In this document: positions 6,071 to 54,622 of the stretch, piece after piece
Layout: each line of letters starts with the position of its first letter
Position numbering within the stretch: position 1 is the stretch's first letter
Assembly: GCA_902826215.1 (NCBI GenBank)
Contig: CADEDY010000011.1
Location: 1-64,000 of the forward strand
Direction of reading: 5' to 3'
Source: an uncultured Bacteroidota bacterium
GTDB lineage: Bacteria; Bacteroidota; Bacteroidia; Flavobacteriales_F; PHOS-HE28
Length of the DNA stretch: 64,000 bases
Notes under the pieces: model-generated
Databases searched by the model: none
The model's input: the letters and a program-made list of their open reading frames with translations, nothing else
Told to the model about the DNA's origin: nothing
Translations under genes and position numbers: made by a program

Positions 6071-8479
6071 ATGTTGAAGAACCTACTCCTTACCGGCTTA
6101 CGGAATCTTGCTCGCAACAAGCTCTATACGCTCATCAATTTGCTGGGCTTGGCCACGGGTATCGCTTGCTTCGTTCTCATCGGCCTGTACGTGCGTTACG
6201 AACGGAGCTATGATCGCTTCGTGCCGCATGCGGATCGGGTCTACCGCGTTGTCGGTGAGATCGAGATGGAAGGTCAGGGGGAGCATAGCAGCAGCATGGT
6301 GTTCGGTCTTGGACCAACCCTCTATGCTGATCATCCGGAATTGATCGATCGCTATTGCCGCTGGTTCGATTTCCAGGATCCGCAACATTCGTTGAAGGTC
6401 GGCGACAGCCTCAGTACCAACAAACTCTTCACCGAGACCGGACTGTACTTGGTGGATAGCACGGTCTTCGATCTGTTCAACTACCCATTGAAGTTGGGTG
6501 ATCCGAAGACGGCACTCGCGCGACCCGGAAGCATTGTACTCAGCGAAGAGCTCGCAAAGAAGTACTTCGGTGATGCGGACCCGATGGGGCAGTTGATGAA
6601 ATGGGATGGCTCCATGGATGTGCAGGTCACTGGTATACTGGGCGAGATCCCACGCAACTCGCACATCCAATTCGAAGGTTTGGTAAGCATGGGAACCATT
6701 CTGCAGTTTTGGCAGAACATCGAGAAGAACAACTGGGTTTGGAATCCCTGTTGGACCTACGTGCGGTTGAAGGAAGGCATCAGTGCAGCGGAAGTGGATC
6801 GCATCTTCCCGGAGTTCATCCACAAGTATTATCCCGATTTTCTGAAGGAACAGATCGGACACCAATTGCAACCGCTCGCCGATATTCACCTCACATCGAA
6901 GTTGGATTTCGAGATGCACCAGAACGGCGATGCAGGCAGCGTGAGCATCCTTTGGGCCATCGGGTTCTTCATCTTGATCCTCGCGGGTGTGAACTTCATG
7001 AACCTATCCACTGCGCGCAGCGCGTACCGAGCGCGGGAAGTGGGTGTGCGCAAGGCAGCAGGAGCGACCAGGATGCAATTGATCGGTCAGTTCTTGTTGG
7101 AGAGTGTGCTGTTGAGCTTGATCGCTGCAACCCTATCGCTGATCCTGATCAAGCTGTTGATGCCGGCCTTCAACGCGCTCGCTGGTGAAGACATAAGCTG
7201 GCCAACGATGATCATCCAGGAAGTGCTGGCGATAGCGGTGGCGTTGGGCGTGCTCAGTGGTGTGTATCCGGCGTTCTTCTTGTCCTCCTTCGAACCCGCC
7301 TTGGTCCTGAAAGGGAACACGGGTTCGAGCACACGTGGACAAGCGTTGCGGAAAGGGCTGGTCGTGGTCCAGTTCGCGATCGCCTTGGTCTTGATCATCG
7401 GTACGGTCTTCGTTGGCCGGCAGCACGACCACCTGATGAAAGTGGATCTCGGCTTCGACAAGGAACAGGTGATGCTGATCCCGGTGCGCGGTCCGATGGC
7501 CGATGTCTACACGGCCGTGTTCCCGGAATTGAAGAACATCAGCGGCGTGAAGGCCGTGAGTTGGGCGAACGACATCATCGGTAAGAAGCACAACACGCAC
7601 GAGTTCAATTGGGGCGATATGGAACAGGGGAAATGGACCTACCTGCCTGCCCTCTATGTGAACGAAGAATTCAATGACGTAGCGCAGATCGAATTGCTCG
7701 CCGGTCGCTGGTTCTCGCGCGAATACCCCGGCGATGATTCGTTGAGTGTGATCGTCAACGAGACCTTCGCAAGACAAACGCATCCGGATGATCCCACCAA
7801 GGCCATCGGTGATCGCATGGACACACCGCATGGCCACGAGCGCATCATCGGAGTGGCCAAGGACTTCGCGTTCGACCCACTGTTCAAGGCCGTACAACCC
7901 TTCGTGTTCGACATGTGCCAGCCCTATGATCGCGGTCAATGGATCCGTTACCTCTACCTACGGCTGGAGGCTGGTGATCCAGCACCGGTGATCGCGGCGG
8001 CGAGGGAGAAGTGGAATGCGCGCACCACGGACTTCCCGTTCGAGTACCAGTTCCTCGATGAGCAATTGAACATGCAGTATGAGGCCCAAGGTCGCTTGGC
8101 GAAGCTCATCGGGACCTTCTCCTTGCTGGCGGTCTTCATCGCGTGCTTGGGCCTGTTCGCACTGGCGTCATGGACAGCGGAGAAGCGCACGCGGGAGATC
8201 GGCATCCGCAAGGTCATGGGAGCGGACACTATGCGCATCACCTATTTGGTGACAAGGGATTTCTTGTTGCTCGTACTGATCGGTGCTCTACTGGCTGTGC
8301 CGATCGCATGGTTCGGTGTGGGGCGTTGGTTGGAGAACTTCGCATTCCGCACGGCGATCGAACCCGTGGTGTTCATCGGCGCGGCCATGGTCGTGCTATT
8401 GATCGCAGCGTTCACCGTGAGCTTCCGGGCGATACGTGCGGCGCAGACCGATCCGGTGCTGGCGTTGCGACACGAGTAA
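6071..8479 (+). CDS. MacB/FtsX-type ABC transporter permease, second copy
   Basis: 802 residues, paralogous to the preceding gene with the same double architecture. It has an N-terminal helix, a MacB_PCD periplasmic domain, an FtsX block with the motif AREVGVRKAAGATRMQLIGQF, a second periplasmic domain and a last FtsX block with REIGIRKVMGAD, ending in DPVLALRHE. The two genes are 12 nt apart, so a heteromeric permease pair or two alternative permeases sharing one ATPase are both possible. It is the last gene of the operon that starts at 1581, and a hairpin follows at 8500-8531. Confidence 0.9.
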   Translation: MLKNLLLTGLRNLARNKLYTLINLLGLATGIACFVLIGLYVRYERSYDRFVPHADRVYRVVGEIEMEGQGEHSSSMVFGLGPTLYADHPELIDRYCRWFDFQDPQHSLKVGDSLSTNKLFTETGLYLVDSTVFDLFNYPLKLGDPKTALARPGSIVLSEELAKKYFGDADPMGQLMKWDGSMDVQVTGILGEIPRNSHIQFEGLVSMGTILQFWQNIEKNNWVWNPCWTYVRLKEGISAAEVDRIFPEFIHKYYPDFLKEQIGHQLQPLADIHLTSKLDFEMHQNGDAGSVSILWAIGFFILILAGVNFMNLSTARSAYRAREVGVRKAAGATRMQLIGQFLLESVLLSLIAATLSLILIKLLMPAFNALAGEDISWPTMIIQEVLAIAVALGVLSGVYPAFFLSSFEPALVLKGNTGSSTRGQALRKGLVVVQFAIALVLIIGTVFVGRQHDHLMKVDLGFDKEQVMLIPVRGPMADVYTAVFPELKNISGVKAVSWANDIIGKKHNTHEFNWGDMEQGKWTYLPALYVNEEFNDVAQIELLAGRWFSREYPGDDSLSVIVNETFARQTHPDDPTKAIGDRMDTPHGHERIIGVAKDFAFDPLFKAVQPFVFDMCQPYDRGQWIRYLYLRLEAGDPAPVIAAAREKWNARTTDFPFEYQFLDEQLNMQYEAQGRLAKLIGTFSLLAVFIACLGLFALASWTAEKRTREIGIRKVMGADTMRITYLVTRDFLLLVLIGALLAVPIAWFGVGRWLENFAFRTAIEPVVFIGAAMVVLLIAAFTVSFRAIRAAQTDPVLALRHE

Positions 8480-8499
8480 CCATGAGGTGAATTCATCCG

Positions 8500-8531
8500 A
8501 CACGGATCCGGTTGAATGGATCCTGCCGTGT
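8500..8531 (+). terminator. Possible terminator after the ABC export operon
   Basis: ACACGG (8500-8505) pairs with CCGTGT (8526-8531), and inside it ATCC (8506-8509) pairs with GGAT (8518-8521) across an 8-nt loop and a CCTG bulge. It lies 20 nt after the stop codon of the last permease gene and just before the end of the convergent gene at 8538. No T-tract follows, so intrinsic termination is uncertain. Confidence 0.35.
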
Positions 8532-8537
8532 GCAGGC

Positions 8538-8693
8538 CTATCCGGCCCACAAACTCCCTACGCCGAAGAATAGGGCAAGCCAAACCAAGCCTTTGATCAG
8601 GAAGAAGAGGAATCCGACCCAGCCCAACCGTTTCAGCCAGGATGGTTTGTTGGTCGCAGCTCGTTCAGCCGACATCGTCAACAACTCTTGCAT
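8538..8693 (-). CDS. 51-residue single-span membrane protein coupled to the haem-utilisation gene
   Basis: The ATG at 8693-8691 lies 2 nt after the stop codon of the HmuS-like gene (8698-8696), so translation is almost certainly coupled. A longer upstream frame exists but lies entirely over the preceding gene. The product starts with a polar, basic stretch (SAERAATNKPSWLKR), then has one hydrophobic helix (about residues 25-47) and ends WAG. No family is recognised with confidence. The coupling suggests a role in haem or iron handling, for example anchoring the cytosolic HmuS-like protein at the membrane; this is inference. Confidence 0.6.
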   Translation of the reverse strand: MQELLTMSAERAATNKPSWLKRLGWVGFLFFLIKGLVWLALFFGVGSLWAG

Positions 8694-8695
8694 GG

Positions 8696-9754
8696 TCAAA
8701 GGGCCAAATCGTTCTGCACCGTTGCAACAAGGGTGCGCCAATGCTCCAACTCCGGAATGCCCGGCTTTCGTTTCCCAAAGACCTGCACCAGTTGCGTGCC
8801 GTTCGCGTCGTAGCATTCCAGTGCGGTCACTGTTCCATCGGTCGTTGGTTTGCGCACGATCCAACTTTGCATGATCGCTTCTTCGCGCACGTGCAGGTTG
8901 AATTCCGGATCGAGCACGTTGAGCCATCCACGCGCGTCCACCACGTTCTTCACTTCACCGGTATGGATCTGTAACATGCCTGGATTGCCAACGAACACCA
9001 TGATCGGCAGTTGTTCGGCTGCCGACGTGGTGAGGATAGCGCGCAATGCCCCGTTGCCAACAGGTACGGCATACTCACCTGCCGGTGCCAACCGCAAGGC
9101 TTGCGTGCGGTTCAGCCGATACCTGCCCAACAACATGTGGAAGTCATGGGTGTCCTTCAAGTTCTTCCAACCATCTCGGAACCCTTCGACATCGATGCTT
9201 GCATCCGGCATTTCGGGCTGCGGAACTTTCCGGGGTTGCACGTCGATCGCAGCGAACTGGTCGTCGGCCCGGAATGACGCAACAAGGGCATGGTAGGCGG
9301 GTACATCGCTCTTGTCCGTGAGGTAGATCTTGTGGATGGCTTCCCCGTCGTGTGCGAAGAATTGCAGACTGAGGCGATCTCCATCATGGCCAGCTTCGTT
9401 CACAGCGAACGCTGTTGACCAGGATCCCCAGAAGATGCGCAGATCGATATCGGCACCAACGAAGAGCCCGACCGGACCTTTGTCGAGTGATGCGTTGAGA
9501 TAGGTGCCTTTGCGCTCGTGCACCACATCTTCATTGCGTGTCAGGGCCATCACGTGCCCCAGGTTCTTGACTTCACTGAGGATGGCCGCGAACTGAGGCT
9601 TCAGACGCACCACGCCTTCGCCGATCCGCAACGTGAGCAACTGCACCTCGCTTACACCCAGTTCACGCGCTGCATTGCGAATGCGGAGCGCGGGTTGTTC
9701 AGCGATGAGTTCGTTCCAGCGCGTGCGCAGGTCGGTGGGAGCGGCTGTGAGCAT
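8696..9754 (-). CDS. hmuS: Haemin-degrading / haem-trafficking protein of the HemS/HmuS/ChuS family
   Basis: 352 residues from the ATG at 9754; the frame extends upstream only to a TTG at 9787, and the family starts at this point. The protein has the tandem two-domain HemS fold: the first half begins LRTRWNELIAEQPALRIRNAARELGVSE, and the second half repeats the fold from about residue 190 (FRDGWKNLKDTHDFHMLLGRYRL). The motif GVSEVQLLTLRIGEG is typical. Relatives bind haem in the cytosol and release iron or hand haem on. No TonB receptor or haem ABC transporter is next to it, which is unusual. The only partner in the operon is the 51-residue membrane protein. The pathway is given by family, the exact activity by inference. 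Confidence 0.85.
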   Translation of the reverse strand: MLTAAPTDLRTRWNELIAEQPALRIRNAARELGVSEVQLLTLRIGEGVVRLKPQFAAILSEVKNLGHVMALTRNEDVVHERKGTYLNASLDKGPVGLFVGADIDLRIFWGSWSTAFAVNEAGHDGDRLSLQFFAHDGEAIHKIYLTDKSDVPAYHALVASFRADDQFAAIDVQPRKVPQPEMPDASIDVEGFRDGWKNLKDTHDFHMLLGRYRLNRTQALRLAPAGEYAVPVGNGALRAILTTSAAEQLPIMVFVGNPGMLQIHTGEVKNVVDARGWLNVLDPEFNLHVREEAIMQSWIVRKPTTDGTVTALECYDANGTQLVQVFGKRKPGIPELEHWRTLVATVQNDLAL

Positions 9755-9861
9755 GTGTGTTTCGGGCGTTCTTTTTCGCCGATGCAAAGCACATGGTCAC
9801 TGGTCCGGAATGGAATAGCATGATCGAGGTAAATGTGGGGTCGCGATCAACGATCGTACGG

Positions 9862-10590
9862 TCACAAGCTCAAGAGATCCTTGAAGCGGGCCGCTTGCCT
9901 GCGCGAGACCTCCATGCTTTCCGGTTCTCCGTTCTTGTCCAGGCTCTTCAGCTTCACCATCAATCCACCATTGAACCAAGGTTCGATCTTATCCACCCAA
10001 CGCAGGTTGATGATGTGTTTGCGGCTCGCACGGAAATAGACCAAGGGATCCAACTTCTCTTCCAGTTTGTTCAATGAGCGCAGTACAAGCGGCTTCTGGT
10101 CATCGAAGCGCACACGCACGTAGTTGCCTTCGCTTTCGAAGTACCGTACGTCCTTCAATGTAACGAACCAACATTTCTCGCCATCCTTCAGGAATATCTG
10201 GTCGGATTCGCGTAGGATCTCCCGTTGCGGAAGATCCGGATCATGTTTCGTCTGCAACTTGCTCAATGCTGCTGCCAAGCGATCCGGATCGATGGGCTTC
10301 ACCACATAGTCCAAGGCGTTCACTTGGAAGGCGCGAAGGGCGTGTTCATCGTATGCGGTAACGAAGATCACTTGCGGCGCTGGGTCGAGTGCAGCAAGCA
10401 GTTCGAATCCATCGCGCCCCGGCATGTTGATGTCGAGGAAGATCAGGTCGGGTCGCTTCTCGGCAACCATCACCTCCGCCTCATCGGAGTTGGCTGCTTC
10501 GCCGATCACTTCGATCCCGTCATGCTTTTCCAACAGGCTGGCCAGCTCCTTGCGTGCAAGGCGTTCGTCGTCGATGATCAATGCTTTCAT
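9862..10590 (-). CDS. LytTR-type response regulator
   Basis: 242 residues from the ATG at 10590. The frame can also start at a TTG (10605) that overlaps the kinase stop, but the ATG gives the canonical beginning MKALIIDDERLARKEL. The receiver domain has the acidic pair DD, the phospho-acceptor Asp in LIFLDINMPGRDGFE (residue 53) and the conserved Lys in YVVKPID. The C-terminal LytTR DNA-binding domain spans about residues 135-242 (DGEKCWFVTLKDVRYFESEGNYV, ending KHIINLRWVDKIEPW). It follows the LytS-like kinase with an 11-nt gap. The regulon cannot be told from the sequence. Confidence 0.92.
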   Translation of the reverse strand: MKALIIDDERLARKELASLLEKHDGIEVIGEAANSDEAEVMVAEKRPDLIFLDINMPGRDGFELLAALDPAPQVIFVTAYDEHALRAFQVNALDYVVKPIDPDRLAAALSKLQTKHDPDLPQREILRESDQIFLKDGEKCWFVTLKDVRYFESEGNYVRVRFDDQKPLVLRSLNKLEEKLDPLVYFRASRKHIINLRWVDKIEPWFNGGLMVKLKSLDKNGEPESMEVSRRQAARFKDLLSL

Positions 10591-39145: not shown

Positions 39146-40429
39146 TCAAGCGAACGGAATGGCCGGCAACACCTTCGTACTCAAGATACCGAACCCGATG
39201 CGCACCCCGTCCTTTTCGGCATGGCCGCGCAGGATCACGGTGTCGCCATCGGCGATGAATTTGCGCTCTTCTCCGTTGGACAGGGTAAGGGGTTTGGTCC
39301 CGCGCCAGGTGAGTTCGAGCATGCTACCGTAGCTATCCGGTGTAGGGCCACTGATGGTTCCGCTGGCCATCAGGTCGCCGCAGCGCACGTTGCAGCCGTT
39401 CACAGTGTGGTGCGCGAGTTGTTGCGCCATGCTCCAATACAGGTACTTGAAATTGCTTTTGCAAATGGTGCTCGGAGCGCTGCCTTCCGGTGCGAGGGCT
39501 GCTTCCAGATGGATGTCGAACGCGCCCGGCTGTGCGGTGCGCAGGTAGGTCAGGGGTTCCGGATCCTGCACCGGTCCTGGAATGCGGAACGGTTCCAAGG
39601 CATCCAAGGTCACCACCCAAGCGGACATGGAAGAAGCGAAGTTCTTGGCAAGGAAAGGGCCCAGTGGAACATACTCCCAGCTTTGGATGTCGCGTGCACT
39701 CCAATCGTTGAAGAGGACCAATCCGAAGATGTGATCGTCCGTTTCTGCGGTACTGATCCGCTGACCCAAAGGCTTGCCATCGAAGGTGAAGAAGCCCACT
39801 TCCAACTCCAGATCGAGCTGTTTGGTCGGGCCGAATACCGGTGCTGCTTGCGTGTCCGGACGAGTCTGACCCATCGGCCGGTGGATCGGTATGCCGCTCG
39901 GGATCAAGCTACTGGCCCGGCCATGGTAACCCACGGGCAAGTGGAGCCAGTTGGGCAGCAGTGCGTTCGCTGGATCGCGGAACATCGAACCGACATTCGT
40001 TGCATGCTCCCGGCTGCTGTAGAAATCGGTGTAGTCACCCACCTGCACCGGCAGGTGAAGGGTCACTTGATCCAACGGCAGCAGAGCATCTTCGCGAAGG
40101 GCGTTGTCGTCCCGCACCGTGGCGTTGTCCTCTTGGAATAACTCGCTCAATCGCTGACGCAGCGCACGCGTCGCCTGTTTGCCATGCACCATGAGGTCGT
40201 TCAACTGCGGGGCCAAAAAGGCTTCCCGTGGCAGGCCGAGGTCATCCAAAAGGCCCACGTCCGCGAGGATGCTGAGGTCGATCACCGTGTCGCCGATGCG
40301 CGTGGCGGGCACAGGTGGTTCGCCATTCCAAGAAGCGATCCCGAACGGAATGTTCTGTATGGGGAAGTCACTATCCTTGGGTGTGCGGATCCAGGAGCGC
40401 AGGCTGGGGTCGTTGGAGGGGATGTTCAT
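39146..40429 (-). CDS. fahA: Fumarylacetoacetase
   Basis: 427 residues. The N-terminal domain starts SLRSWIRTPKDSDFPIQNIP, and the FAH fold follows with the metal-binding and substrate residues in FYSSREHATNVG, FFTFDGKPLG, FGLVLFNDWSARDIQSWEYVPLG (Asp and Glu ligands of the metal) and SMAQQLAHHTVNGCNVRCGDLMASGTISGP (catalytic His and Gln/Glu region). It hydrolyses 4-fumarylacetoacetate to fumarate and acetoacetate, the last step of tyrosine and phenylalanine breakdown. No other tyrosine-degradation gene is adjacent. A truncated paralogue of the first 55 residues is found 1.2 kb upstream at 41614-41802. A CACCTTTG sequence 6 nt upstream may be a promoter element. Confidence 0.95.
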   Translation of the reverse strand: MNIPSNDPSLRSWIRTPKDSDFPIQNIPFGIASWNGEPPVPATRIGDTVIDLSILADVGLLDDLGLPREAFLAPQLNDLMVHGKQATRALRQRLSELFQEDNATVRDDNALREDALLPLDQVTLHLPVQVGDYTDFYSSREHATNVGSMFRDPANALLPNWLHLPVGYHGRASSLIPSGIPIHRPMGQTRPDTQAAPVFGPTKQLDLELEVGFFTFDGKPLGQRISTAETDDHIFGLVLFNDWSARDIQSWEYVPLGPFLAKNFASSMSAWVVTLDALEPFRIPGPVQDPEPLTYLRTAQPGAFDIHLEAALAPEGSAPSTICKSNFKYLYWSMAQQLAHHTVNGCNVRCGDLMASGTISGPTPDSYGSMLELTWRGTKPLTLSNGEERKFIADGDTVILRGHAEKDGVRIGFGILSTKVLPAIPFA

Positions 40430-40465: not shown

Positions 40466-41614
40466 TTACTTCTGTACTGGCCTTTCTGGTCGTATGTACA
40501 ATGCACTCAATACTCTTCTACCAGCGGCGATTGATGGTTGTTCCAATAGTCGATAGCCAACATGAGCTACGGCCAGCGCAATTGGAAATATTATCACCAG
40601 GCATAATAGTCGCAATAGAGAAGGCATTGTTGTTGGAAGTTCTTTGCCCATCCACATAAGGAGGGGTTGATGGAACAAATAGAAACTATAACTGACAACT
40701 CCAAGGTTGCACAAGTGCCGCCATGCTAATGAGAGCTTCCCATCAGCAGGTACTCGCCAGCGCCCTGTGTGAAAGCGGTCCATGGCAACAGCGGTGGTCA
40801 ATGCACAGAGCGGGAAGGTCAACATGTTTGTGGGCCTGAACAGGGCGGACATCACCAACAGGACCACCAACACATCGAAGCGTGTGCGTTTGAACAATGC
40901 ACCCCTGCCCAGTTGGTGATGTTGGGCTAGGTACGCACCGATGGTCCAACTACCCCAGAAACTGAGCGGTGAAGAGCGGACGATGAATGGTACGGTACCG
41001 GCATGTAGAAGAGAAAAAAGGAGCGGCAAAATCCGTATCAGAATTTCCAGACAGGCCACCAACAGAAGGCTTCGATCCCACCCCAAGCGCCGGACCAATA
41101 GGAGCAGGAGCGGGTAGAGCAGGTACAATTGAATCTCCGCAGCGATGCTCCAGAAAGATGGATTGATACCGAAACGCAAGTGTTCCCAGAGATTCTGAAC
41201 GGCAAATACGTTAGCCGTCAACTGCTCCAAGATGTCCGGCCCGTTCAAAGGATTAATCCAGGGAGATAGAACGAGGAAGAAGCAAATAGCGAACAAATAG
41301 GCCGGGTAGATCCGGAAAAAGCGCCGAATGAAGAAAGAAGGCCAACCGCCATTCTTGTTCTTGCTGTGGCTGAGGTGAATGCAATAACCACTGATAACGA
41401 AGAAGATCGATACCCCCAAATACCCGTAACTAAGCGGGTATACGAATAGGAAGTCTATGTCGCGACCAATGTCGCGGAATTTCCCAGCCCATGGCAATTG
41501 GTCGAAACCGAATACAGGTCCCAAGGTGTGGAATAGAAATACGGCAAGAATGGCCATCCCGCGAAGCCCATCAAGGTATGGAAGATGCCCTTTGTTGCTA
41601 ACCTCTGTATCCAT
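40466..41614 (-). CDS. Membrane acyltransferase of the OafA/YrhL (acyltransferase 3) family
   Basis: 382 residues with about ten hydrophobic spans. The motif GHLPYLDGLRGMAILAVFLFH at the start gives the catalytic His-and-Arg region of acyltransferase 3 proteins, followed by FFVISGYCIHLS and FFIRRFFRIYPAYL (the R-x-x-R-I-Y-P signature). Such enzymes transfer acetyl or other acyl groups to surface polysaccharides or lipids. The ATG shares one base with the stop of the truncated fumarylacetoacetase fragment upstream (TGATG), and base composition is visibly AT-richer than in flanking genes. This suggests arrival by transfer into a former fah copy. It is convergent in function with the glycan genes downstream but separate from that operon. 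Confidence 0.88.
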   Translation of the reverse strand: MDTEVSNKGHLPYLDGLRGMAILAVFLFHTLGPVFGFDQLPWAGKFRDIGRDIDFLFVYPLSYGYLGVSIFFVISGYCIHLSHSKNKNGGWPSFFIRRFFRIYPAYLFAICFFLVLSPWINPLNGPDILEQLTANVFAVQNLWEHLRFGINPSFWSIAAEIQLYLLYPLLLLLVRRLGWDRSLLLVACLEILIRILPLLFSLLHAGTVPFIVRSSPLSFWGSWTIGAYLAQHHQLGRGALFKRTRFDVLVVLLVMSALFRPTNMLTFPLCALTTAVAMDRFHTGRWRVPADGKLSLAWRHLCNLGVVSYSFYLFHQPLLMWMGKELPTTMPSLLRLLCLVIIFPIALAVAHVGYRLLEQPSIAAGRRVLSALYIRPERPVQK

Positions 41615-41802
41615 CAGTAGTTCATGTCGGTCTTCGCCAGGATGCTCAGGTCCACCTCGGTGTCCCCCACGCGCGTGGCGGGCACCGGTGGTTCGCCATT
41701 CCAGGAAGCGATCCCGAACGGAATGTTCTGGATGGGGAAGTCACTCTCCTTCGGAACGCGGATCCAGGAGCGGAGCGCAGGGTTGTTGGCGGGCAAGGTC
41801 AT
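41614..41802 (-). pseudogene. Truncated 5' fragment of a second fumarylacetoacetase gene
   Basis: 62 residues from the ATG at 41802. The translated piece (ALRSWIRVPKESDFPIQNIP, then FGIASWNGEPPVPATRVGDT, ending LSILAKTDMNY) matches the first 55 residues of the intact gene at 39146-40429 at nearly every position, and the DNA is similar too. It then stops in TGA, one base into the acyltransferase ATG. The upstream flank also keeps GACCTTTG, like CACCTTTG before the intact copy. It is therefore a partial duplication or the remnant of a second gene, unlikely to encode an enzyme, though the peptide could be translated and couple the acyltransferase start. Confidence 0.8.
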
Positions 41803-41842
41803 GGGATCAGGTGGTGGTCGATGGGGTGCAAAGGTCGTGATC

Positions 41843-42382
41843 ATGGGCGGCAGGTCGAAGTTCAAGGGCGATGTTGATCCCGATCCGCATCTTCACAGCC
41901 GCATGTCACCCCGTGGAACTCGTGTTGTCGTGGTATCGATCGTGACTATTCACGTAGCGATGCTGCTCGCCTACACCTTGCCTTCTGGGTTCATTCCGAA
42001 GCGGGTCGCGCAGTGGTCGCAGCGGTATGTGCGCCCGGTGTTCCATCAGCAATGGATGTTGTTCGCCCCGGACCCACCGAATTGCGCTTGTAGGATTGAA
42101 GTGAATAGGGCCGACGGAAGCTGGGAGCCGATCGAAGAGCCGAACAGCCATTACCTCATCGGTCGAATGGCACGTCCGCTGGCCGATCATGTGAACGACC
42201 GGATGCTTAGCGGTGATACCGTTGTAATGCCCCTTCTAGCCCACGCGATCCAGAACATGGCGTGTGAAGAGGATGCGAATGAGGCCCCATTACGATACCG
42301 CCTCGTTCGAAAATGTGTCGTGGATCCAGCCCATCCCGAAGTGCGTTCAGCGGAATTCATCGAGCTTGAATTGCCCCGATGA
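41843..42382 (+). CDS. DUF5819-like membrane-anchored protein
   Basis: 179 residues from the ATG at 41843; a second ATG at 41903 would give 159 and begins closer to the membrane helix. The open frame itself runs back to 41624 over the fah fragment on the other strand. A helix at about 30-50 (RVVVVSIVTIHVAMLLAYTL) is followed by YVRPVFHQQWMLFAPDPPNC, the signature of DUF5819, and a globular remainder. Its ATGA overlap with the next gene (HTTM protein) and the known pairing of DUF5819 with HTTM genes in other phyla argue that the two work together. The function is unknown. Confidence 0.72.
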   Translation: MGGRSKFKGDVDPDPHLHSRMSPRGTRVVVVSIVTIHVAMLLAYTLPSGFIPKRVAQWSQRYVRPVFHQQWMLFAPDPPNCACRIEVNRADGSWEPIEEPNSHYLIGRMARPLADHVNDRMLSGDTVVMPLLAHAIQNMACEEDANEAPLRYRLVRKCVVDPAHPEVRSAEFIELELPR

Positions 42383-45353: not shown

Positions 45354-45830
45354 CTAACCCGTTGGCCGGTCCATCGAAGAACCACGCACCAACCAGGACG
45401 CAGCCCAGATGAAGAACAGGATCACAGGGTATTGCAATACGTGCAAGAGCTTCACGGCGACATCACCCATGGCGGGAATTCCCGATGACGCGAACTTCAA
45501 TAGACCTGCGCAGAGACCCAACGCGATGAAACCGATGACCAAGCTGTTGCGGTACCGGTGGTCACCGAAAACGATGCGGGCCAGAAGAATGGAAAGCAGA
45601 AGGTGGATGCCGATGAAGACCGCGGTCAGCGCCCACTTCAAGCGGACCAGATCGTTCAAGGACAGCTCCCGCACTGCCGCTCGGAAGGCGCTGTGCGCGT
45701 ACGAAACTGTGCGCTGGTTCGCCAGATGGTCGATCGCGTAGTTCAAATTGAGGAAGAGGAATTCGCGTGCTGCTCCGAGAAGGATAGCCACCGCGAGGAT
45801 GGCACCGATACCTGCGTTACGACGACTCAT
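45354..45830 (-). CDS. Exosortase-associated membrane protein (XrtX/XrtF-partner type)
   Basis: 158 residues from the ATG at 45830 (the frame opens at 45899 within the exosortase gene). There are four hydrophobic spans, at about 8-28, 60-82, 92-112 and 128-150. The segment [23 protein letters not shown] lies between spans one and two and resembles the small membrane proteins found beside exosortases in Flavobacteriales. Its start overlaps the exosortase stop by 4 nt (ATGA), which argues for stable partnership. It may help the exosortase fold or recognise its substrate. The exact subfamily name cannot be settled by reading. Confidence 0.72.
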
Positions 45831-46387
45831 GCCTTCGCAGGTGGGGGAGATTTCGGCGCGAATTTCCGCACCCAAATGGCCCATAAGAAGAACACCCAAC
45901 CGTACACGACCACATAGAAGGTGTAATCGTGGTTGAAGTTCAGCAGCTCGTAGTCATACTTCACGATGATGCAGAGTGCTGCCACCCGAATGGCGTTGAT
46001 GAGGTGGATGCTGAGCAGGCCCAATGATCCGAACCAGAGCTTGTGCCGCCACGGTCCCGGATAGGCGATCAGGAAGATGAGATACACGGCGAAGAGGCCG
46101 ATGCCATTACAGGGATCGCCGATCCAGAGCAGATGCCCGCCTTGCACGCCGATGGTACGGAGGTTCTCCGCATTCGCAGGCTCCGGAATAAGATCGTATC
46201 CCAAAGTGCGCAGGATGGCCCGCGCCCATGCGATCAGCGAATCGATGGCCGCTCGGTCGAGCAACCCATGCGGGTGCAGGACGAACTCGTAGAGCAGATA
46301 CCAGCCCAAATAAAGGCCAGCGGCAACAGCAAGAAAACGGATAACGGGATCCCCTTTCACCACCGGGGTGGCGACGGGCGTGGACAT
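45827..46387 (-). CDS. Exosortase/archaeosortase family protein (XrtX/XrtF-like)
   Basis: 186 residues with about six membrane spans. The catalytic triad of the family is present: Cys93 in IGDPCNGIGLFAVY, Arg134 in HLINAIRVAALC and His153 in NFNHDYTFYVVVYG. Exosortases cleave a C-terminal sorting signal of secreted proteins and are thought to join the new end to an envelope molecule, as sortases do. The ATG shares one base with the stop of the PID-CTERM peptide gene (TAATG), and it is 4 nt overlapped with the following membrane protein gene. Size and gene order fit the small Bacteroidota exosortases (XrtX or XrtF type), which act on short signals. The acceptor molecule is unknown. Confidence 0.88.
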   Translation of the reverse strand: MSTPVATPVVKGDPVIRFLAVAAGLYLGWYLLYEFVLHPHGLLDRAAIDSLIAWARAILRTLGYDLIPEPANAENLRTIGVQGGHLLWIGDPCNGIGLFAVYLIFLIAYPGPWRHKLWFGSLGLLSIHLINAIRVAALCIIVKYDYELLNFNHDYTFYVVVYGWVFFLWAIWVRKFAPKSPPPAKA

Positions 46388-46602
46388 TACGCGGAGTTCT
46401 TCCGGCTCCGGCGGAGGTCAAGGGCTTTCTTACCGCCGAGCACGGCACCAGCAGCGACCAAAAGGCTCAAACCACCGTCGATGGGAATGCAGGGTGGGGG
46501 CCAGCAGGGAGGCGAGCCGCCTACACCGGTTGCCATCACAATGTTGGCGAATGGCACGATCACCAGGGCAAAGGAGAGGACAAAGCGTAACGCGTTCTTC
46601 AT
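46387..46602 (-). CDS. PID-CTERM sorting-signal peptide, likely exosortase substrate
   Basis: 71 residues from the ATG at 46602 (the frame continues upstream to 46785 without signal-peptide character). Residues 1-24 are a signal peptide (KNALRFVLSFALVIVPFA, cleavage near NIVMA). The mature stub (about 25-39) is tiny and unusual, with PPCWPPPC, two Cys among prolines. PIDGG at residues 40-44 starts the PID-CTERM signal, followed by the hydrophobic run LSLLVAAGAVL and a basic end (KKALDLRRSRKN). Because the next gene is an exosortase sharing a start-stop base, it is very probably the cognate substrate. Cleavage near PIDGG would leave about 16 residues. A TACATTTG promoter element lies 23 nt before the start. 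Confidence 0.82.
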   Translation of the reverse strand: MKNALRFVLSFALVIVPFANIVMATGVGGSPPCWPPPCIPIDGGLSLLVAAGAVLGGKKALDLRRSRKNSA

Positions 46603-46625
46603 GGGCTGATAGCAGCGAATGCGCA

Positions 46626-46633
46626 CAAATGTA
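46626..46633 (-). promoter_or_regulatory. -7 element TACATTTG for the exosortase operon
   Basis: On the minus strand TACATTTG (46633-46626) matches TAnnTTTG exactly and lies 23 nt before the ATG at 46602. It faces the element TATATTTG at 46716-46723, 82 nt away, which drives the glycan locus. Confidence 0.6.
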
Positions 46634-46794: not shown

Positions 46795-49224
46795 ATGGCA
46801 CCACCCAAGACCCAGGACCGCGGAAGCATCGTTGATGCGAAGGACCTGCGGTACTTCCTGCGGATCGCCTCCAAGAACTGGTACTTCGTGGTGGTGGCGC
46901 TGCTGTTGTCGGCCGTGTTATCCTACCTCTACAGCTACAAGCTGCCCGATATCTACGGAGCGAGCACCCAGATCCTGCTGAAGGACTCGGAGGTGTACGA
47001 TTACCAGAGCCAGGTCTATAAATCCTTGGGCTATGTGCAGTCCTACAGCGACATCGTGAACCAGAAACGCGTGCTCACCTCTTACGATCTAGTGGATGCC
47101 ACGCTGAGCAAATTGGACTTCGACATCTCGTACTTCATCGTCGGGCGGTTCAAGACCTCACAGGTCTACGGCACCTTGCCCTTCACGGTGCACATGGACC
47201 TCTTGGATGATCGCTTCTACGAGCGTCCGTTCGACATGCGGATCCTGGGTCTGGATACCTTCGAATTGAACTACGACAAGGGCGGGAAATTGGTGTCCCG
47301 GAAGTTCAAATTCGACGAGCAGGTCCAGGACCCGGGCAACACCTTCATCCTCAAGGTCGAGCGGTCACCTTACTTCAACGAGCATACCCTGTCGCGGCTG
47401 GTGGAGACCGACTATCAGTTCATCCGTCATCAGCGGGATAACCTGGTCAAGAAGTACAAGAGTACCATAGGCGTGGACAATCAGGAGTTCACCACCATCC
47501 TGGACATCACGGTGGAGGATGAAGTGGGGGTGCGCGCCAAGATGTTCTTGGACACCTTGTCCAAGGAGTACATTCGGTACACGTTGCAGAGCGAGTTCGA
47601 TATCAACGAGAACACGCTCAACTACATCGATAAGCAACTGGCCGAGGTGACCGTGATACTGGACGAACACGAGGATGAGCTTCAGCGCTACAAGGAGAGT
47701 AAGAATATCCTCGATCTGGGGCGCGAAGAATCACTCTACTTCACGGAGCTGATCCAATACGATCACCAAGCGCGGTTCCAGGAGATCCAGCTGAAGTCCT
47801 TGGAAGCGTTGGAGGATTATGTGTTGAATTCCAGCGATGAGAAGTTGCTTCCTCCAGCCCTTTACATAACCGACGACGAGTTCCTGAAGCAGACCTTGGG
47901 TTCACTCTATTCCATGCAGATGGAACGGACCTCGGATCTGTTCACGGGTACCGAGGACAACATCACCATCCAGCGCTTGGATTCGACCATTCAATTGCGG
48001 AAGGCTATACTTCTTACCTATATAAAGAACGCCAAGCACGCCATCGAACAGAAGATGGAGGACATCGGTGAGCAGTCCAGCGATTACGAGGGCATGATCC
48101 GTAACCTGCCCAAGAGCCATCGCGACATCCTGAACATCGAACGGCGGTTGCTGGTGAACGAGAAGATGTACCTGTTCCTCTTGGAGAAGCGGGCCAGTAC
48201 GGTGATCGCACGAGCGGGTATCATACCGAAGACCAAGATCATCGAGAGCGCGAGGAGCTTGGGTGTCGTACGGCCGGATAAGATGAAGATCTTCTACACC
48301 TTCATGTTGGGCGGTTTGGTCATCTCCATGATGGTCGTTTTCGTCCGCGTGATGTTCTACGACCGCATCGAGAATGCGGATCAGCTGAAGGAATTGACCA
48401 CGCTGCCGGTATTCGGGGAGATCATCGCCAGTGAAAAGGCCGAGGACAACTACGTTGTGGTGGATAGCGACCCGAAAGCAGCGATCACCGAGTCCTTCCG
48501 GACGGTGCGGACGAACTTGGAGTATGTGCCAGGGCCGGAGGATCGAGGCAAGATCGTACTGGTCACGAGCTATCGGCCGAATGAAGGCAAGACCTTCTGC
48601 TCGGTGAACCTGAGCGCCATCCTCGCCAAGGCCGGCAAGAAGGTGTTGTTGTTGGAGTTGGATCTGCACAAACCGAAGGTGGCAGCCGGTTTGGGCATGA
48701 CAAGTCAGGTCGGTCTCAGCACCGTGCTGATCGGTAAGATGGGATGGCGCGATGTGGTGGCCCCGACCCAGTTCGAGAATTTCCATGTGATGCTTTCGGG
48801 ACCCACGCCACCGAACGCCTCGGAGTTGATCCTGAGCAAGCATCTTCCCGAGATGTTCTTGGAAGCAGCGGCGATCTACGATTACGTGATCATCGATACG
48901 CCACCTGTCGGCCTCATCACCGATGCGCTGCTGATGATGCGCCACGCGGATGCCACGCTGTTCGTGGTGAACACGCGTTTCGCGAGCAAGGATCACGTGA
49001 CCAATGCCATCGAGGTGCTGCAAGTGAATCCGGCGAAGAACACCGGCTTCATCCTCAACGGTGTACGGATCAAGAAGAGCAAGTACTACTACAACACCAA
49101 CTACGGCTATGGCTACCGTTATGCGTACGGCTATGGCACGGGCTACGGTTATGGGTATGGCTATGGTCGTCGTTCCCGCTCCAAGGACAAGAACGGATCC
49201 GGATCCGCGGATACCACGAACTAG
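46795..49224 (+). CDS. Wzc-type polysaccharide co-polymerase and tyrosine autokinase
   Basis: 809 residues. A Wzz-like part has membrane helices near residues 25-45 and 505-525 around a long periplasmic coiled-coil domain. The cytosolic BY-kinase domain (from about 580) has Walker A VTSYRPNEGKTFCSVNLS, Walker A' LLELDLHKPKVAAG and Walker B YVIIDTPPVGLITDAL. It ends in a very tyrosine-rich tail: 13 tyrosines in 28 residues (about 763-790), mostly alternating Y-G, where autophosphorylation takes place in this family. In Wzc the cycle of phosphorylation controls polymer length and export. Being the first gene of the locus and preceded by a promoter-like element, it likely leads a glycan operon. 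The length is somewhat above the 700-750 of typical Wzc. Confidence 0.93.
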   Translation: MAPPKTQDRGSIVDAKDLRYFLRIASKNWYFVVVALLLSAVLSYLYSYKLPDIYGASTQILLKDSEVYDYQSQVYKSLGYVQSYSDIVNQKRVLTSYDLVDATLSKLDFDISYFIVGRFKTSQVYGTLPFTVHMDLLDDRFYERPFDMRILGLDTFELNYDKGGKLVSRKFKFDEQVQDPGNTFILKVERSPYFNEHTLSRLVETDYQFIRHQRDNLVKKYKSTIGVDNQEFTTILDITVEDEVGVRAKMFLDTLSKEYIRYTLQSEFDINENTLNYIDKQLAEVTVILDEHEDELQRYKESKNILDLGREESLYFTELIQYDHQARFQEIQLKSLEALEDYVLNSSDEKLLPPALYITDDEFLKQTLGSLYSMQMERTSDLFTGTEDNITIQRLDSTIQLRKAILLTYIKNAKHAIEQKMEDIGEQSSDYEGMIRNLPKSHRDILNIERRLLVNEKMYLFLLEKRASTVIARAGIIPKTKIIESARSLGVVRPDKMKIFYTFMLGGLVISMMVVFVRVMFYDRIENADQLKELTTLPVFGEIIASEKAEDNYVVVDSDPKAAITESFRTVRTNLEYVPGPEDRGKIVLVTSYRPNEGKTFCSVNLSAILAKAGKKVLLLELDLHKPKVAAGLGMTSQVGLSTVLIGKMGWRDVVAPTQFENFHVMLSGPTPPNASELILSKHLPEMFLEAAAIYDYVIIDTPPVGLITDALLMMRHADATLFVVNTRFASKDHVTNAIEVLQVNPAKNTGFILNGVRIKKSKYYYNTNYGYGYRYAYGYGTGYGYGYGYGRRSRSKDKNGSGSADTTN

Positions 49225-49242
49225 CGATCGCGATCACCACCG

Positions 49243-50103
49243 ATGGATGCGGAGAACCGATCGGACTGGGATGTGGTCATTGAGCCCTCGAAGGGGTGGT
49301 GGCGGATCGATCTCCGCGAACTCTGGCACTATCGTGATCTGCTGCGTTTGATGGTTCGCCGTGATCTGCTCGCGGTGTACAAGCAAACGATCCTCGGTCC
49401 GCTCTGGCAGGTGCTACAGCCTCTGCTAACGGCCTTGGTACTGGCCGTCGTTTTCGGTTTGCTGGGTCGCATGGCGCCTGCGGATCAACCGCCCCTGCTG
49501 TTCTATTTGGCTGCGGTGGTTCCATGGACCTTCTTCGCCAATGTGATCCAACGGACCTCTCAGACCTTGGTGTGGAACGCTGCGCTCATGAGCAAGGTCT
49601 ATTTCCCGCGTCTGGTTGCTCCAGTGGCCACCACGCTTTCCACCATGGTGAGCTTCCTTTTGCAACTGGCAACGTTCTTCGTTATCGCGCTGGGCTACCG
49701 CGTCTTCAGCGACCTGCCTTGGGCACCGGGGAGCAACCTATTGGCACTGCCGTTACTGATCCTGATCATGTCGGTCCTCGCTTTCGGTTGCGGGGTGCTG
49801 GTCGCCTCGCTCACCACGCGCTTCCGTGACCTTGGTTTCCTGGTCGGCTTCGGCATGCAACTGCTCATGTATGCCAGTCCGGTCATCTTCCCCTTGAGCC
49901 TCGTGCCCGATGGGTCACTTCTCCGACACGTCATCGAACTGAACCCCATGACCGGTGTGATCGAGGGCTTTCGCGCCGCCTTGTTGGGCACGCCCATAGA
50001 CCTTGGGCTACTGCCGTATTCCGGAACGGCCGCCCTGGTGATGCTGATCATCGGCACCCTTGTCTTCCAACGTGCACAGCGCACATTCGCGGACGTGGTC
50101 TGA
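49243..50103 (+). CDS. Polysaccharide ABC exporter permease (Wzm type), first pair
   Basis: 286 residues with six spans of the ABC-2 polysaccharide/polyol-phosphate type. The head, WRIDLRELWHYRDLLRLMVRRDL, includes the R-R-D/K-L element before span one, then YKQTILGPLWQVLQPLLTAL, the coupling segment that contacts the ATPase, and VVFGLLGRMAP. The final helix ends FQRAQRTFADVV. The gene begins 18 nt after wzc and its stop shares one base with the ATPase start (TGATG). It should carry a lipid-linked glycan across the inner membrane together with the next gene product. Confidence 0.88.
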   Translation: MDAENRSDWDVVIEPSKGWWRIDLRELWHYRDLLRLMVRRDLLAVYKQTILGPLWQVLQPLLTALVLAVVFGLLGRMAPADQPPLLFYLAAVVPWTFFANVIQRTSQTLVWNAALMSKVYFPRLVAPVATTLSTMVSFLLQLATFFVIALGYRVFSDLPWAPGSNLLALPLLILIMSVLAFGCGVLVASLTTRFRDLGFLVGFGMQLLMYASPVIFPLSLVPDGSLLRHVIELNPMTGVIEGFRAALLGTPIDLGLLPYSGTAALVMLIIGTLVFQRAQRTFADVV

Positions 50104-51359
50104 TGGCTGCGCGCACGGTCATCGAAGTTTCGGACGTCCGCAAGCGGTACCGGCTGGGCGTGATCGATCGCAGCTTGGTGACCGATGAACTGGCCGCGGC
50201 ATTCGCTCGACTTCGAGGCAAGCCGGACCCACGCGGAGACATCCATGCGGTCGGTGGTGACCAACGTGCTGGTGATCAATTCTGGGCGCTGCGCAATGTG
50301 TCGTTCAACGTGGCGCAAGGCGAAGTGCTCGGCCTGATCGGCAGGAACGGCGCAGGGAAAAGCACCTTGCTCAAATTGCTCTCGCGCATCACCTTGCCCA
50401 CGGCTGGTCGTATCCGCATGAAGGGCCGGGTCTCCAGTTTGCTCGAGGTGGGTACGGGCTTCCATCCGGAGCTCACCGGGCGGGAGAACATCTACCTGAA
50501 CGGCGCCATCATGGGCATGCGTCGCGCAGAGATCGACGGGCTGCTGGACGAGATCATCGCCTTCAGTGGCATCGAACACCACATCGATACACCGATCAAA
50601 CGCTACAGCAGCGGGATGAAGGTGCGGTTGGGCTTCGCAGTGGCAGCGCACTTGGACCCGGACATCCTGGTGGTGGACGAGGTCCTTGCGGTGGGCGATG
50701 CTGAATTCCAACGGCGGTGCCTGGGACGCATGCGCTCGGTGGCGGACAGCGGCCGCACCATCATCTTCGTGAGCCACAACATGTTCTCCGTCCAGAGCCT
50801 ATGCACACGGGCGATCTGGCTGGACAAGGGCGAGGTCCGGGCGGACGACAGCGTGGTTACCGTGGTGCGCGACTACCTCAACGAATGCTCCGCTCAAACG
50901 AACGAGCAGGTGTGGACCGACGCCGATGCACCGGGTACGGACGAAGTACGACTAATGGCCATACGCGCCATCAGCGCCGATGCGGAAGGCCTGTTCTCGA
51001 CGACAGCGGCCATCACCATCGAGTTGGATCTCCAGAACCACGCCATCACCGATTTTGACCTCAACATCCAGCTCATCGTGCACACCGATTCCGATATCGT
51101 GGCCTTCATTTCGGACATGACCGAATCCATTGGAACAGCGATCTGGCCCGTGGGGGCGAACGTCGTGCGTTGCACCATTCCTTCGGACCTGCTGAACGAT
51201 GGGGGATACCGGATCTCGGTGCTGTTCCAACGGAAGGGCAACCGGCATTTCCTCGTGCAGGATGCCATCAGCATCGATGTGCAGGAAGGCCCTCGCCGAG
51301 GTGCCTGGTTCCAGAAATGGCAAGGGGCTTTGCGGCCAGCACTACATTGGGTCCGATGA
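50103..51359 (+). CDS. Polysaccharide ABC exporter ATPase (Wzt type) with C-terminal carbohydrate-binding domain, first pair
   Basis: 418 residues, longer than the plain 250-residue ATPase. Walker A is LIGRNGAGKSTLLKLL, the signature is KRYSSGMKVRLGFA (variant of LSGGQ with Y-S-S-G-M) and Walker B is DILVVDEVLAVGD; the H-loop is IFVSHNM. From about residue 260 a beta-sandwich domain follows (EVRLMAIRAISADAEGLF, ITIELDLQNHAITDFDLNIQL), as in Wzt of E. coli O9a where it recognises the non-reducing-end modification of the polymer. That suggests the glycan carries a chain-end modification. Its last bases overlap the FkbM gene by 4 nt. Confidence 0.9.
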   Translation: MAARTVIEVSDVRKRYRLGVIDRSLVTDELAAAFARLRGKPDPRGDIHAVGGDQRAGDQFWALRNVSFNVAQGEVLGLIGRNGAGKSTLLKLLSRITLPTAGRIRMKGRVSSLLEVGTGFHPELTGRENIYLNGAIMGMRRAEIDGLLDEIIAFSGIEHHIDTPIKRYSSGMKVRLGFAVAAHLDPDILVVDEVLAVGDAEFQRRCLGRMRSVADSGRTIIFVSHNMFSVQSLCTRAIWLDKGEVRADDSVVTVVRDYLNECSAQTNEQVWTDADAPGTDEVRLMAIRAISADAEGLFSTTAAITIELDLQNHAITDFDLNIQLIVHTDSDIVAFISDMTESIGTAIWPVGANVVRCTIPSDLLNDGGYRISVLFQRKGNRHFLVQDAISIDVQEGPRRGAWFQKWQGALRPALHWVR

Positions 51360-52505: not shown

Positions 52506-53396
52506 ATGAGTGATCCGATGAGTGGTTCTGGACCGTTGACGCAGAAGAAGCCCATGGCCGTAACGGTGTACACACCGGCCTCGGCACTGCGTGATCCGGG
52601 ATTGATGCTGCGCAGTATGTTCGCCGACCTGCGAGCTTCGCGCGAATTGGCGTGGCGATTGGCCCAACGGGACATCAAGGCACAGTACCGGCAATCGTTA
52701 CTTGGTTACCTCTGGGCCTTCATAATGCCGCTCAGCACCACCTTGGCGTGGGTCTACCTCAACTCATCGGGTATCGTGAAGGTCACGTCTACGGGGATGC
52801 CCTATCCGATCTATGTGCTCACGGGCACCATGCTCTGGCAGATGTTCACGGAGGCCTTGCAAACGCCATTGGGCCAGTTGAGCGCGTCCAAGAACCTACT
52901 GGCCAAGCTCAAATTCCCACGCGAAGCCCTCATCCTGAGCGGCATCATCAAATGGAGCTTCAATGCGGGGGTCAAGATGTTGATCATCATCCCGGCGCTC
53001 TTCATCCTCGGCGGCTCACCGGATATCCACATCCTACTCGTCCCGATCATCCTCTTGGCCATCCTCCTCATCGGCACGGCCATTGGCCTTTTCATAGCAC
53101 CGATCGGATTGCTCTACACGGATGTCGGCCGGTTGATCCCGGTGGTCCTGCAATTCGCCATGTACGTGACGCCCGTGGTCTTCGCCATGCCTGCCGATGG
53201 CTTCGCGGCCAAACTTTTCCGCATCAACTTCATGACCCCGGTCATCGTCAATGGGCGTGCTTGGTTGGTGGGGATGGAGGGCTCCATGCTCCAAGAAATG
53301 GCCTTGATCTGCGCCGCAGCATCGGTTCTGCTCTTCCTAGGTTGGGTGCTGTTCCGCACGACCATGTCCGTATTGATCGAACGCATGAGTGCCTGA
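52506..53396 (+). CDS. Polysaccharide ABC exporter permease (Wzm type), second pair
   Basis: 296 residues. After a polar head of about 45 residues comes the ABC-2 core. ELAWRLAQRDIKAQYRQSLL is the coupling helix before span one, then LGYLWAFIMPLSTTLAWVYL, LTGTMLWQMFTEAL and a final span LLFLGWVLFRTTMSVLIERM. It has six spans like the first permease but is only distantly similar. The stop shares one base with the ATPase start (TGATG). A second complete exporter in the same locus suggests two glycans, or a glycan and a glycolipid, are exported. Confidence 0.86.
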   Translation: MSDPMSGSGPLTQKKPMAVTVYTPASALRDPGLMLRSMFADLRASRELAWRLAQRDIKAQYRQSLLGYLWAFIMPLSTTLAWVYLNSSGIVKVTSTGMPYPIYVLTGTMLWQMFTEALQTPLGQLSASKNLLAKLKFPREALILSGIIKWSFNAGVKMLIIIPALFILGGSPDIHILLVPIILLAILLIGTAIGLFIAPIGLLYTDVGRLIPVVLQFAMYVTPVVFAMPADGFAAKLFRINFMTPVIVNGRAWLVGMEGSMLQEMALICAAASVLLFLGWVLFRTTMSVLIERMSA

Positions 53397-54622
53397 TGGA
53401 GGAGGACGTGCTCATCAAGGTCGAGGGGGTCTCCAAGAAGTTCTGTCGGGACCTCAAGACCTCGTTGCGCTATGGCATGGCCGATGTGCGCGATGAAGTG
53501 CTCGGCCGGCCGCGCACCATGGAATTGCGCCCCAAGGAATTCTGGGCGATCAATGGCATCGATTTCCAAGTGCGCCGAGGCGAATGCTTGGGCCTCATCG
53601 GGCACAACGGAGCTGGCAAGACCACCTTGCTCAAAACGCTCAATGGCCTCATCAAACCGGACGCTGGCCGCATCGAGATCCACGGACAGGTCGGGGCGCT
53701 CATCGCCTTGGGTGCGGGCTTCAACCCCATCCTCACGGCGCGGGAGAACATATACATCAACGCCTCGGTGCTGGGCCTGAGCAAGAAACGGGTGGACGAG
53801 CGCATCGACGAGATCATCGCCTTTGCCGAGATCGAGGACTTCATCGACATGCCCGTGCAGCACTTCAGCTCCGGCATGACGGTGCGGCTCGGTTTCGCTG
53901 TAGCGGCCATCCTGATCGAACCCGACATCCTCTTCCTGGACGAGGTGCTCGCAGTGGGAGACATCAATTTCACCGTCAAGTGCCTTAACCGGGTACGCGA
54001 ACTCATGCGGACCTCGGCAGTGGTCTTCGTATCGCACAACATGCCACTGATCACCTCGTTCTGCACCCGCGTCATGGTCATGGACCATGGCCGTTGTGTC
54101 TTGGATACCGAGGAGATCGGTGTGGCGGTGAACCACTATTTCGGATTGGCCAAGAATTCGGTGCAGATCTCCGGCTCTGGCGATGCTTCTGTATTGGACC
54201 TCCATCTTTCGGCAAATGGCGTGGCTCTGGAGAACGATACGCCTACTATTCTACAGGAACAGGAACTCACAGCAACGGTGCGGATCAGGATCGAGAAGGA
54301 GCAATTGGGTGAGATGAGCATCACCGTCGCCGATGCGACCTTGACGGCTCTTCTCGTCATACCTGTTGTTGATGAAAATGGCACACCCATCTCACTGGGG
54401 CCTGGTGAACATGAACTGCAGATCCCCCTGGGTCCTGTGGAACTGAATGCCGGCTTGTATTCCTTCGTGATCGCAGTGCGGAACGCATCAACCAAGGTCA
54501 ACCTCTGCCGTCACCAAGGCGTGCACCCTTTCCGGGTGCACGCTGATCGGGTGCATTGGGCCAAATTCGTGCGCACCGGGGTGACCACGGTCAAGGAACT
54601 CGAGCGGACCACGGTGAAATGA
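53396..54622 (+). CDS. Polysaccharide ABC exporter ATPase (Wzt type) with C-terminal domain, second pair
   Basis: 408 residues from the ATG at 53396; the frame is open far upstream (from 52652) only as a shadow of the permease gene. Walker A is LIGHNGAGKTTLLKTL, the signature VQHFSSGMTVRLGFA, Walker B EPDILFLDEVLAVGD, and the H-loop VFVSHNM. The C-terminal 160 residues (from about 250) are a beta-rich domain (VQISGSGDASVLDLHLSANG, ELTATVRIRIEKEQLGEMSI) of the Wzt-C kind, different from that of the first ATPase. That difference fits two glycan ends being recognised. The gene overlaps the DegT gene by 4 nt. Confidence 0.88.
   Translation: MEEDVLIKVEGVSKKFCRDLKTSLRYGMADVRDEVLGRPRTMELRPKEFWAINGIDFQVRRGECLGLIGHNGAGKTTLLKTLNGLIKPDAGRIEIHGQVGALIALGAGFNPILTARENIYINASVLGLSKKRVDERIDEIIAFAEIEDFIDMPVQHFSSGMTVRLGFAVAAILIEPDILFLDEVLAVGDINFTVKCLNRVRELMRTSAVVFVSHNMPLITSFCTRVMVMDHGRCVLDTEEIGVAVNHYFGLAKNSVQISGSGDASVLDLHLSANGVALENDTPTILQEQELTATVRIRIEKEQLGEMSITVADATLTALLVIPVVDENGTPISLGPGEHELQIPLGPVELNAGLYSFVIAVRNASTKVNLCRHQGVHPFRVHADRVHWAKFVRTGVTTVKELERTTVK

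Follow-up and report, generated by a model that had tools for sequence, protein, structure and literature searches.

In an uncultured Bacteroidota bacterium we characterised a minimal exosortase unit, in which exosortase X (XrtX) is paired with a 71-residue PID-CTERM protein, and peptide-sized substrates of this kind proved to be the rule for the XrtX/PID system across Bacteroidota, mostly with 10-31 mature residues. The unit lies on the minus strand of a stretch of 64,000 nucleotides (hereafter the window) at 46602-45354, where the PID-CTERM gene (pid), xrtX and a membrane protein gene follow one another with overlaps. Analogy with relatives, in which PID genes mostly pair with genes for large cargo of type IX secretion (T9SS), points to a possible role that goes beyond polysaccharide and involves surface proteins delivered by the T9SS. 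Our preferred, tentative reading (probability roughly 0.4) is that XrtX puts the peptide on an envelope acceptor, where the peptide would work with those surface proteins.

The pid-xrtX unit and its conservation in the genus

The first gene (46387..46602, minus strand) encodes a microprotein of 71 aa that is kept across the genus and comprises a signal peptide (residues 1-24), TGVGGSPPCWPPPCI, PIDGG, a hydrophobic helix and a basic tail. With its PID motif, helix and tail, and with a PID-CTERM domain at residues 40-60 that scores 35 bits against the cut-off of 26, the protein belongs to NF046080. Residues 25-42, after Ala24, read TGVGGSPPCWPPPCIPID and amount to 18 residues up to the Asp of PID, or 15 up to the residue before PID. 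The initial annotation's estimate of a leftover of about 16 residues was therefore fair, the figure being 15-18 depending on where near PID the cut would fall. The peptide of this unit is the CWPPPC peptide; QPGLPSAPSQAPID is another type of PID peptide. In 37 sequences from the genus, P-C-W-P-P-P-C-I-P and the following D-G-G are invariant while the Pro, Gly and Ile codons vary synonymously, and most columns of the signal peptide in the genus alignment hold 5 to 10 different residues. Given invariant residues, free synonymous codons and a variable signal peptide, the alignment indicates selection on the peptide itself, beyond a mere cleavage motif.

The second gene (45827..46387, minus strand) encodes XrtX of 186 aa, which exceeds the exosortase X cut-off (NF046081, 179.4 vs 170 bits) as well as that of the exosortase/archaeosortase family (TIGR04178, 51.5 bits, cut-off 23), and falls below that of exosortase F (TIGR04128, 80.3 vs 90 bits). 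The triad Cys93, Arg134 and His153, described as intact in the initial annotation, is indeed so and is invariant across 36 diverse sequences; the AF2 model is multi-helical (pLDDT 90.9). The third gene (45354..45830, minus strand) encodes a mostly helical membrane protein of 158 aa (AF2 pLDDT 94.5), which scores 29.2 bits against the NF046082 cut-off of 75 (E 6.4e-7). As relatives carry a gene of similar size in the same place after xrtX, the protein holds the XrtX-associated position without counting as an NF046082 member. Neither XrtX nor the membrane protein matched a PDB structure at E<=0.001, and a sequence search with XrtX gave no match.

The start-stop overlaps noted earlier, TAATG between pid and xrtX and ATGA between xrtX and the membrane protein gene, are confirmed; that the products are therefore made in fixed proportion is unsupported, as such overlap suggests translational coupling only. 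A Bacteroidota-type -7 promoter element, TACATTTG (46626..46633, minus strand), begins 31 nt upstream of the start codon of pid. Elements of the form TAnnTTTG are found 22-46 nt 5' of the start codon in 36/38 genus loci, against 1.8% in shuffles, and a sigma-70 scan for the promoter of the unit gave no match, as expected for Bacteroidota promoters. Because the -7 element precedes pid, and the pid stop overlaps the xrtX start in most of the 38 loci, the three genes appear to form a single operon headed by the peptide gene.

In 39/45 genomes sampled from the genus there was exactly one PID-CTERM match; the gene order, judged by similarity, is the same in 37/38 fetched loci. Divergent from the unit lies a Wzc-like chain-length/tyrosine autokinase gene (46795..49224, plus strand), followed by genes for a Wzm-like ABC-2 polysaccharide exporter permease (49243..50103, plus strand) and, from the ORF reading, a Wzt-like ATPase with a C-terminal extension (50103..51359, plus strand). 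The divergent glycan locus described in the initial annotation is thus real, and it is kept in the genus: the Wzc-like gene is present wherever the contig reaches far enough, mostly with Wzm/Wzt next, among the 38 loci. Single-copy occurrence, the kept neighbourhood and the recurrent -7 element together argue that the unit is not a chance arrangement. Two further features of the window were noticed. Two Wzm/Wzt-type polysaccharide ABC exporters stand a few kb apart within this one locus, the second at 52506-53396 with a Wzt-like ORF ending at 54622. An 83-aa ORF at 41614-41865 duplicates the N terminus of a fumarylacetoacetase-like gene (39146-40429); an acyltransferase gene (40466-41614) stands between the two copies, an arrangement that a partial duplication or an insertion might have left.

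The genome-wide look for other PIDGG tails that had been called for returned this one match even at E<=1, so that the substrate is the only one, and many PID-CTERM proteins of normal size, which would have spoken against a dedicated peptide substrate, were not seen; these genome-wide statements rest on family profile searches. The PEP-CTERM model TIGR02595 matched nothing in the genome, and it was silent on its controls too. Elsewhere (locus L111, contig C4 62000-81000, at 7159-10457) the genome encodes another exosortase, XrtN, which scores 269 bits against a cut-off of 200 and stands directly after a VIT/VWA-type protein with the PEP-CTERM-like tail VPEPHEWAMIVLAGLTLLWFVHRQRAA; the genome therefore has two separate exosortase systems.

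PID-CTERM peptides and T9SS cargo across Bacteroidota

Our sample of the phylum comprised 392 genomes, 65 with a PID-CTERM match and 120 with an XrtX-like gene. Substrate and enzyme co-occur: all 65 PID genomes have an XrtX-like gene, against 55/327 of the rest (Fisher p 4e-41, a test that ignores phylogeny), and PID is present in 45 of the 47 genomes whose XrtX scores over the cut-off. Among the named relatives are Hymenobacter, Pontibacter, Adhaeribacter, Litoribacter, Gracilimonas and Balneola, with XrtX found in, e.g., Hymenobacter, Gracilimonas and Litoribacter. Predicted mature lengths, approximate since they derive from a simple signal-peptide rule, were 18-22 residues in the genus, 24-31 in other Flavobacteriales, 10-28 in Cytophagales, 14-59 (median 14.5) in a mostly Balneolaceae set and 38-86 in a Rhodothermota-like group. 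The initial description of a unit with a tiny sole substrate stands for the unit and for its single peptide-sized substrate, whereas the small size is not peculiar to this locus. As the sequence of the peptide changes from one lineage to the next, direct binding, if there is any, would have to change with it; two Cys were found in 13/13 PID peptides tested from other Flavobacteriales. The PID proteins of the Rhodothermota-like group (L201-L208) are longer and, close to the N terminus of the mature form, have an LPxWA-like motif in common (LPSWAEP and VPDWASS, for example). In some Balneolaceae (L305, L306, L308, L230, L234), xrtX sits within a cassette resembling a Wbp-type pathway (nucleotide-sugar dehydrogenases, a Gfo/Idh oxidoreductase, a hexapeptide acetyltransferase and a DegT aminotransferase). 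A Wbp linking sugar was considered as a general link and dropped, the cassette being found by xrtX in almost no other lineage and absent from the window.

Several PID genes stand apart from xrtX in many genomes. Such solitary genes lie directly downstream of, and on the same strand as, a gene with a T9SS type A sorting domain (CTD) in 44/63 cases, against 7.5% of the other genes in the same loci (p 1e-29); with either side counted, the figure is 48/63. All 36 upstream partner genes scanned have TIGR04183, of which the multi-PID genomes hold only 32 to 122 genes each. The N termini of the partner cargo are diverse (ice-binding, kelch, LamG, lamin-tail and others), and common to these proteins is a module of about 190 residues that precedes the sorting domain and has no match in Pfam; example modules are at 8625-9269 in L152, 8395-9039 in L149 and 8494-9138 in L134. 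Paralogous PID genes within one genome encode near-identical peptides beside different cargo.

In nine multi-PID genomes we counted about 107 matches to this module against about 697 sorting domains; most other T9SS cargo lacks it. As the module profile was built from PID partners, held-out families served as the test, and a Balneolaceae-type profile matched 14/15 PID-adjacent cargo proteins vs 1/7 others. The module occurs in 142/392 genomes of the sample: in 101/120 with an XrtX-like gene vs 41/272 without (p 4e-40, phylogeny again being ignored). These 41 genomes count against our preferred reading. In a search of eight genomes that lack an XrtX-like gene, several with abundant T9SS cargo, the module was absent. 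Genomes with an XrtF-like gene (G065, G101, G301; L238-L241) have the same cargo module, mostly without a detected PID gene, which likewise counts against that reading. Tiny proteins that have diverged may serve as XrtF substrates; a search of three genomes for very small hairpin ORFs next to xrtF-like genes yielded none that was convincing.

The genome studied here has a T9SS, with a PorU match of 1240 bits and at least 150 CTD matches. The module matches number three and are clustered in another contig (C8), where in the large proteins the module stands about 260 residues before the CTD and not adjacent to it. The PID gene adjoins xrtX and the Wzc-like gene, not T9SS cargo, and a T9SS partnership in this genome would therefore be carried over from relatives. 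The tie to a glycan locus put forward initially holds in the genus as linkage to the export locus; PID genes elsewhere mostly pair with T9SS cargo.

Possible roles of the peptide

For the family, a cysteine transpeptidase chemistry directed at a tripartite C-terminal signal has been proposed (PMC1569441, PMC11980579), from which XrtX is predicted to cut near PIDGG and to pass the peptide to an acceptor. The PID protein would enter the inner membrane via its signal peptide, with residues 1-24 removed by signal peptidase. XrtX, which belongs to the exosortase/archaeosortase family and resembles a cysteine transpeptidase, would then cut near PIDGG, leave the C-terminal helix behind and hand the 18-residue, Pro-rich, two-Cys peptide to an envelope acceptor. 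The acceptor would most likely be a surface glycan or its lipid carrier, a first guess prompted by the polysaccharide-export locus that adjoins the unit. Since PID genes pair with module-bearing T9SS cargo, the displayed peptide may cooperate with large T9SS surface proteins that share the module, e.g., by serving them as a tag for docking or anchoring. The two cleavages, the acceptor and the partnership of peptide and cargo are what we infer.

The peptide could instead merely decorate the polysaccharide or lipid carrier from the adjoining locus, the T9SS pairing reflecting co-regulation with no physical partnership. This is possible though somewhat unlikely: the divergent Wzc/Wzm/Wzt genes are kept in the genus, Wzc lies near XrtX in several other families and a tie of exosortases to exopolysaccharide has been published (PMC1569441), but simple co-regulation would not predict pairing to one cargo subset with a shared module, and many PID genes are away from recognised glycan-export genes. 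Alternatively, the PID protein might act as a membrane hairpin, a chaperone or an XrtX-controlled checkpoint for partner cargo in periplasmic transit, to be recycled upon release by XrtX, with no further role for the peptide. The same-strand position right after cargo genes and the mature peptides as short as about 10 residues in some Cytophagales fit such a function; we nevertheless consider it unlikely, as conservation in the genus is highest in the mature peptide and no cargo gene stands beside PID there.

We regard it as quite improbable that XrtX sets free a secreted peptide with a signalling or antibacterial role, perhaps cyclised through its Cys pair or bearing an N-terminal pyroglutamate. 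The peptide is short and Pro-rich, many relatives have Gln at the predicted N terminus and the Cys pair recurs in all other Flavobacteriales peptides tested; against this, (i) PID paralogues of a single genome keep almost the same peptide next to different cargo genes, (ii) no receptor, immunity or dedicated exporter gene was recognised beside the PID gene, and (iii) exosortases are thought to conjugate rather than release. That the small ORF is no real protein, for which its length alone could be cited, is scarcely credible in view of the curated family match, the invariant peptide with varying synonymous codons, the promoter element and the start-stop coupling.

Known sorting systems and implications

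The XrtX enzyme and the PID-CTERM sorting signal are already catalogued in NCBIfam, which names the set as PID_CTERM, exosortase X and XrtX-associated membrane protein (NF046080, NF046081 and NF046082), so the unit is not novel as such; all three parts are present here, two over the cut-off and the associated protein divergent. A literature search, with most subscription journals outside its reach, found no paper on PID-CTERM, on peptide-only substrates or on the T9SS cargo pairing. The system resembles PEP-CTERM/exosortase (EpsH; PMC1569441) in its tripartite C-terminal signal, in invariant residues fitting a transpeptidase and in the exopolysaccharide tie. PEP-CTERM substrates are, however, numerous and diverse, with a median of eight per genome (PMC1569441), whereas here there is one, whose signal peptide and sorting signal are separated by hardly any sequence.

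Exosortase F of Flavobacterium johnsoniae (PMC10936215) is a related enzyme with a small membrane protein encoded adjacent; it differs in that XrtX here stays below the XrtF cut-off and in that PID is mostly not detected in XrtF genomes. Deletion of xrtF or of its partner gene causes colonisation, biofilm and zorb defects resembling those of T9SS mutants, and the study reports no substrate (PMC10936215); by analogy, these phenotypes hint at independent support for the T9SS link. Covalent surface attachment within the same phylum is also known from PorU in Porphyromonas (PMC7468200), and PorU and T9SS cargo are present in this genome as well. PorU acts on the cargo itself, whereas PID proteins have no T9SS CTD and rely on an exosortase of the inner membrane.

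A more specific form of our preferred reading, in which PID peptides are XrtX-installed docking or anchoring tags in the envelope, recognised via the pre-CTD module of a defined T9SS class, is speculative and for now doubtful. If it is the case, surface display would involve two systems, one making the anchor and the other delivering the protein. The substrates of this Bacteroidota exosortase are peptide-sized and few, and gene order couples them to a class of T9SS cargo that can be defined. The processing of the peptide, its acceptor and the link between two surface-sorting systems thereby become testable in cultured relatives such as Hymenobacter, Gracilimonas and Litoribacter.
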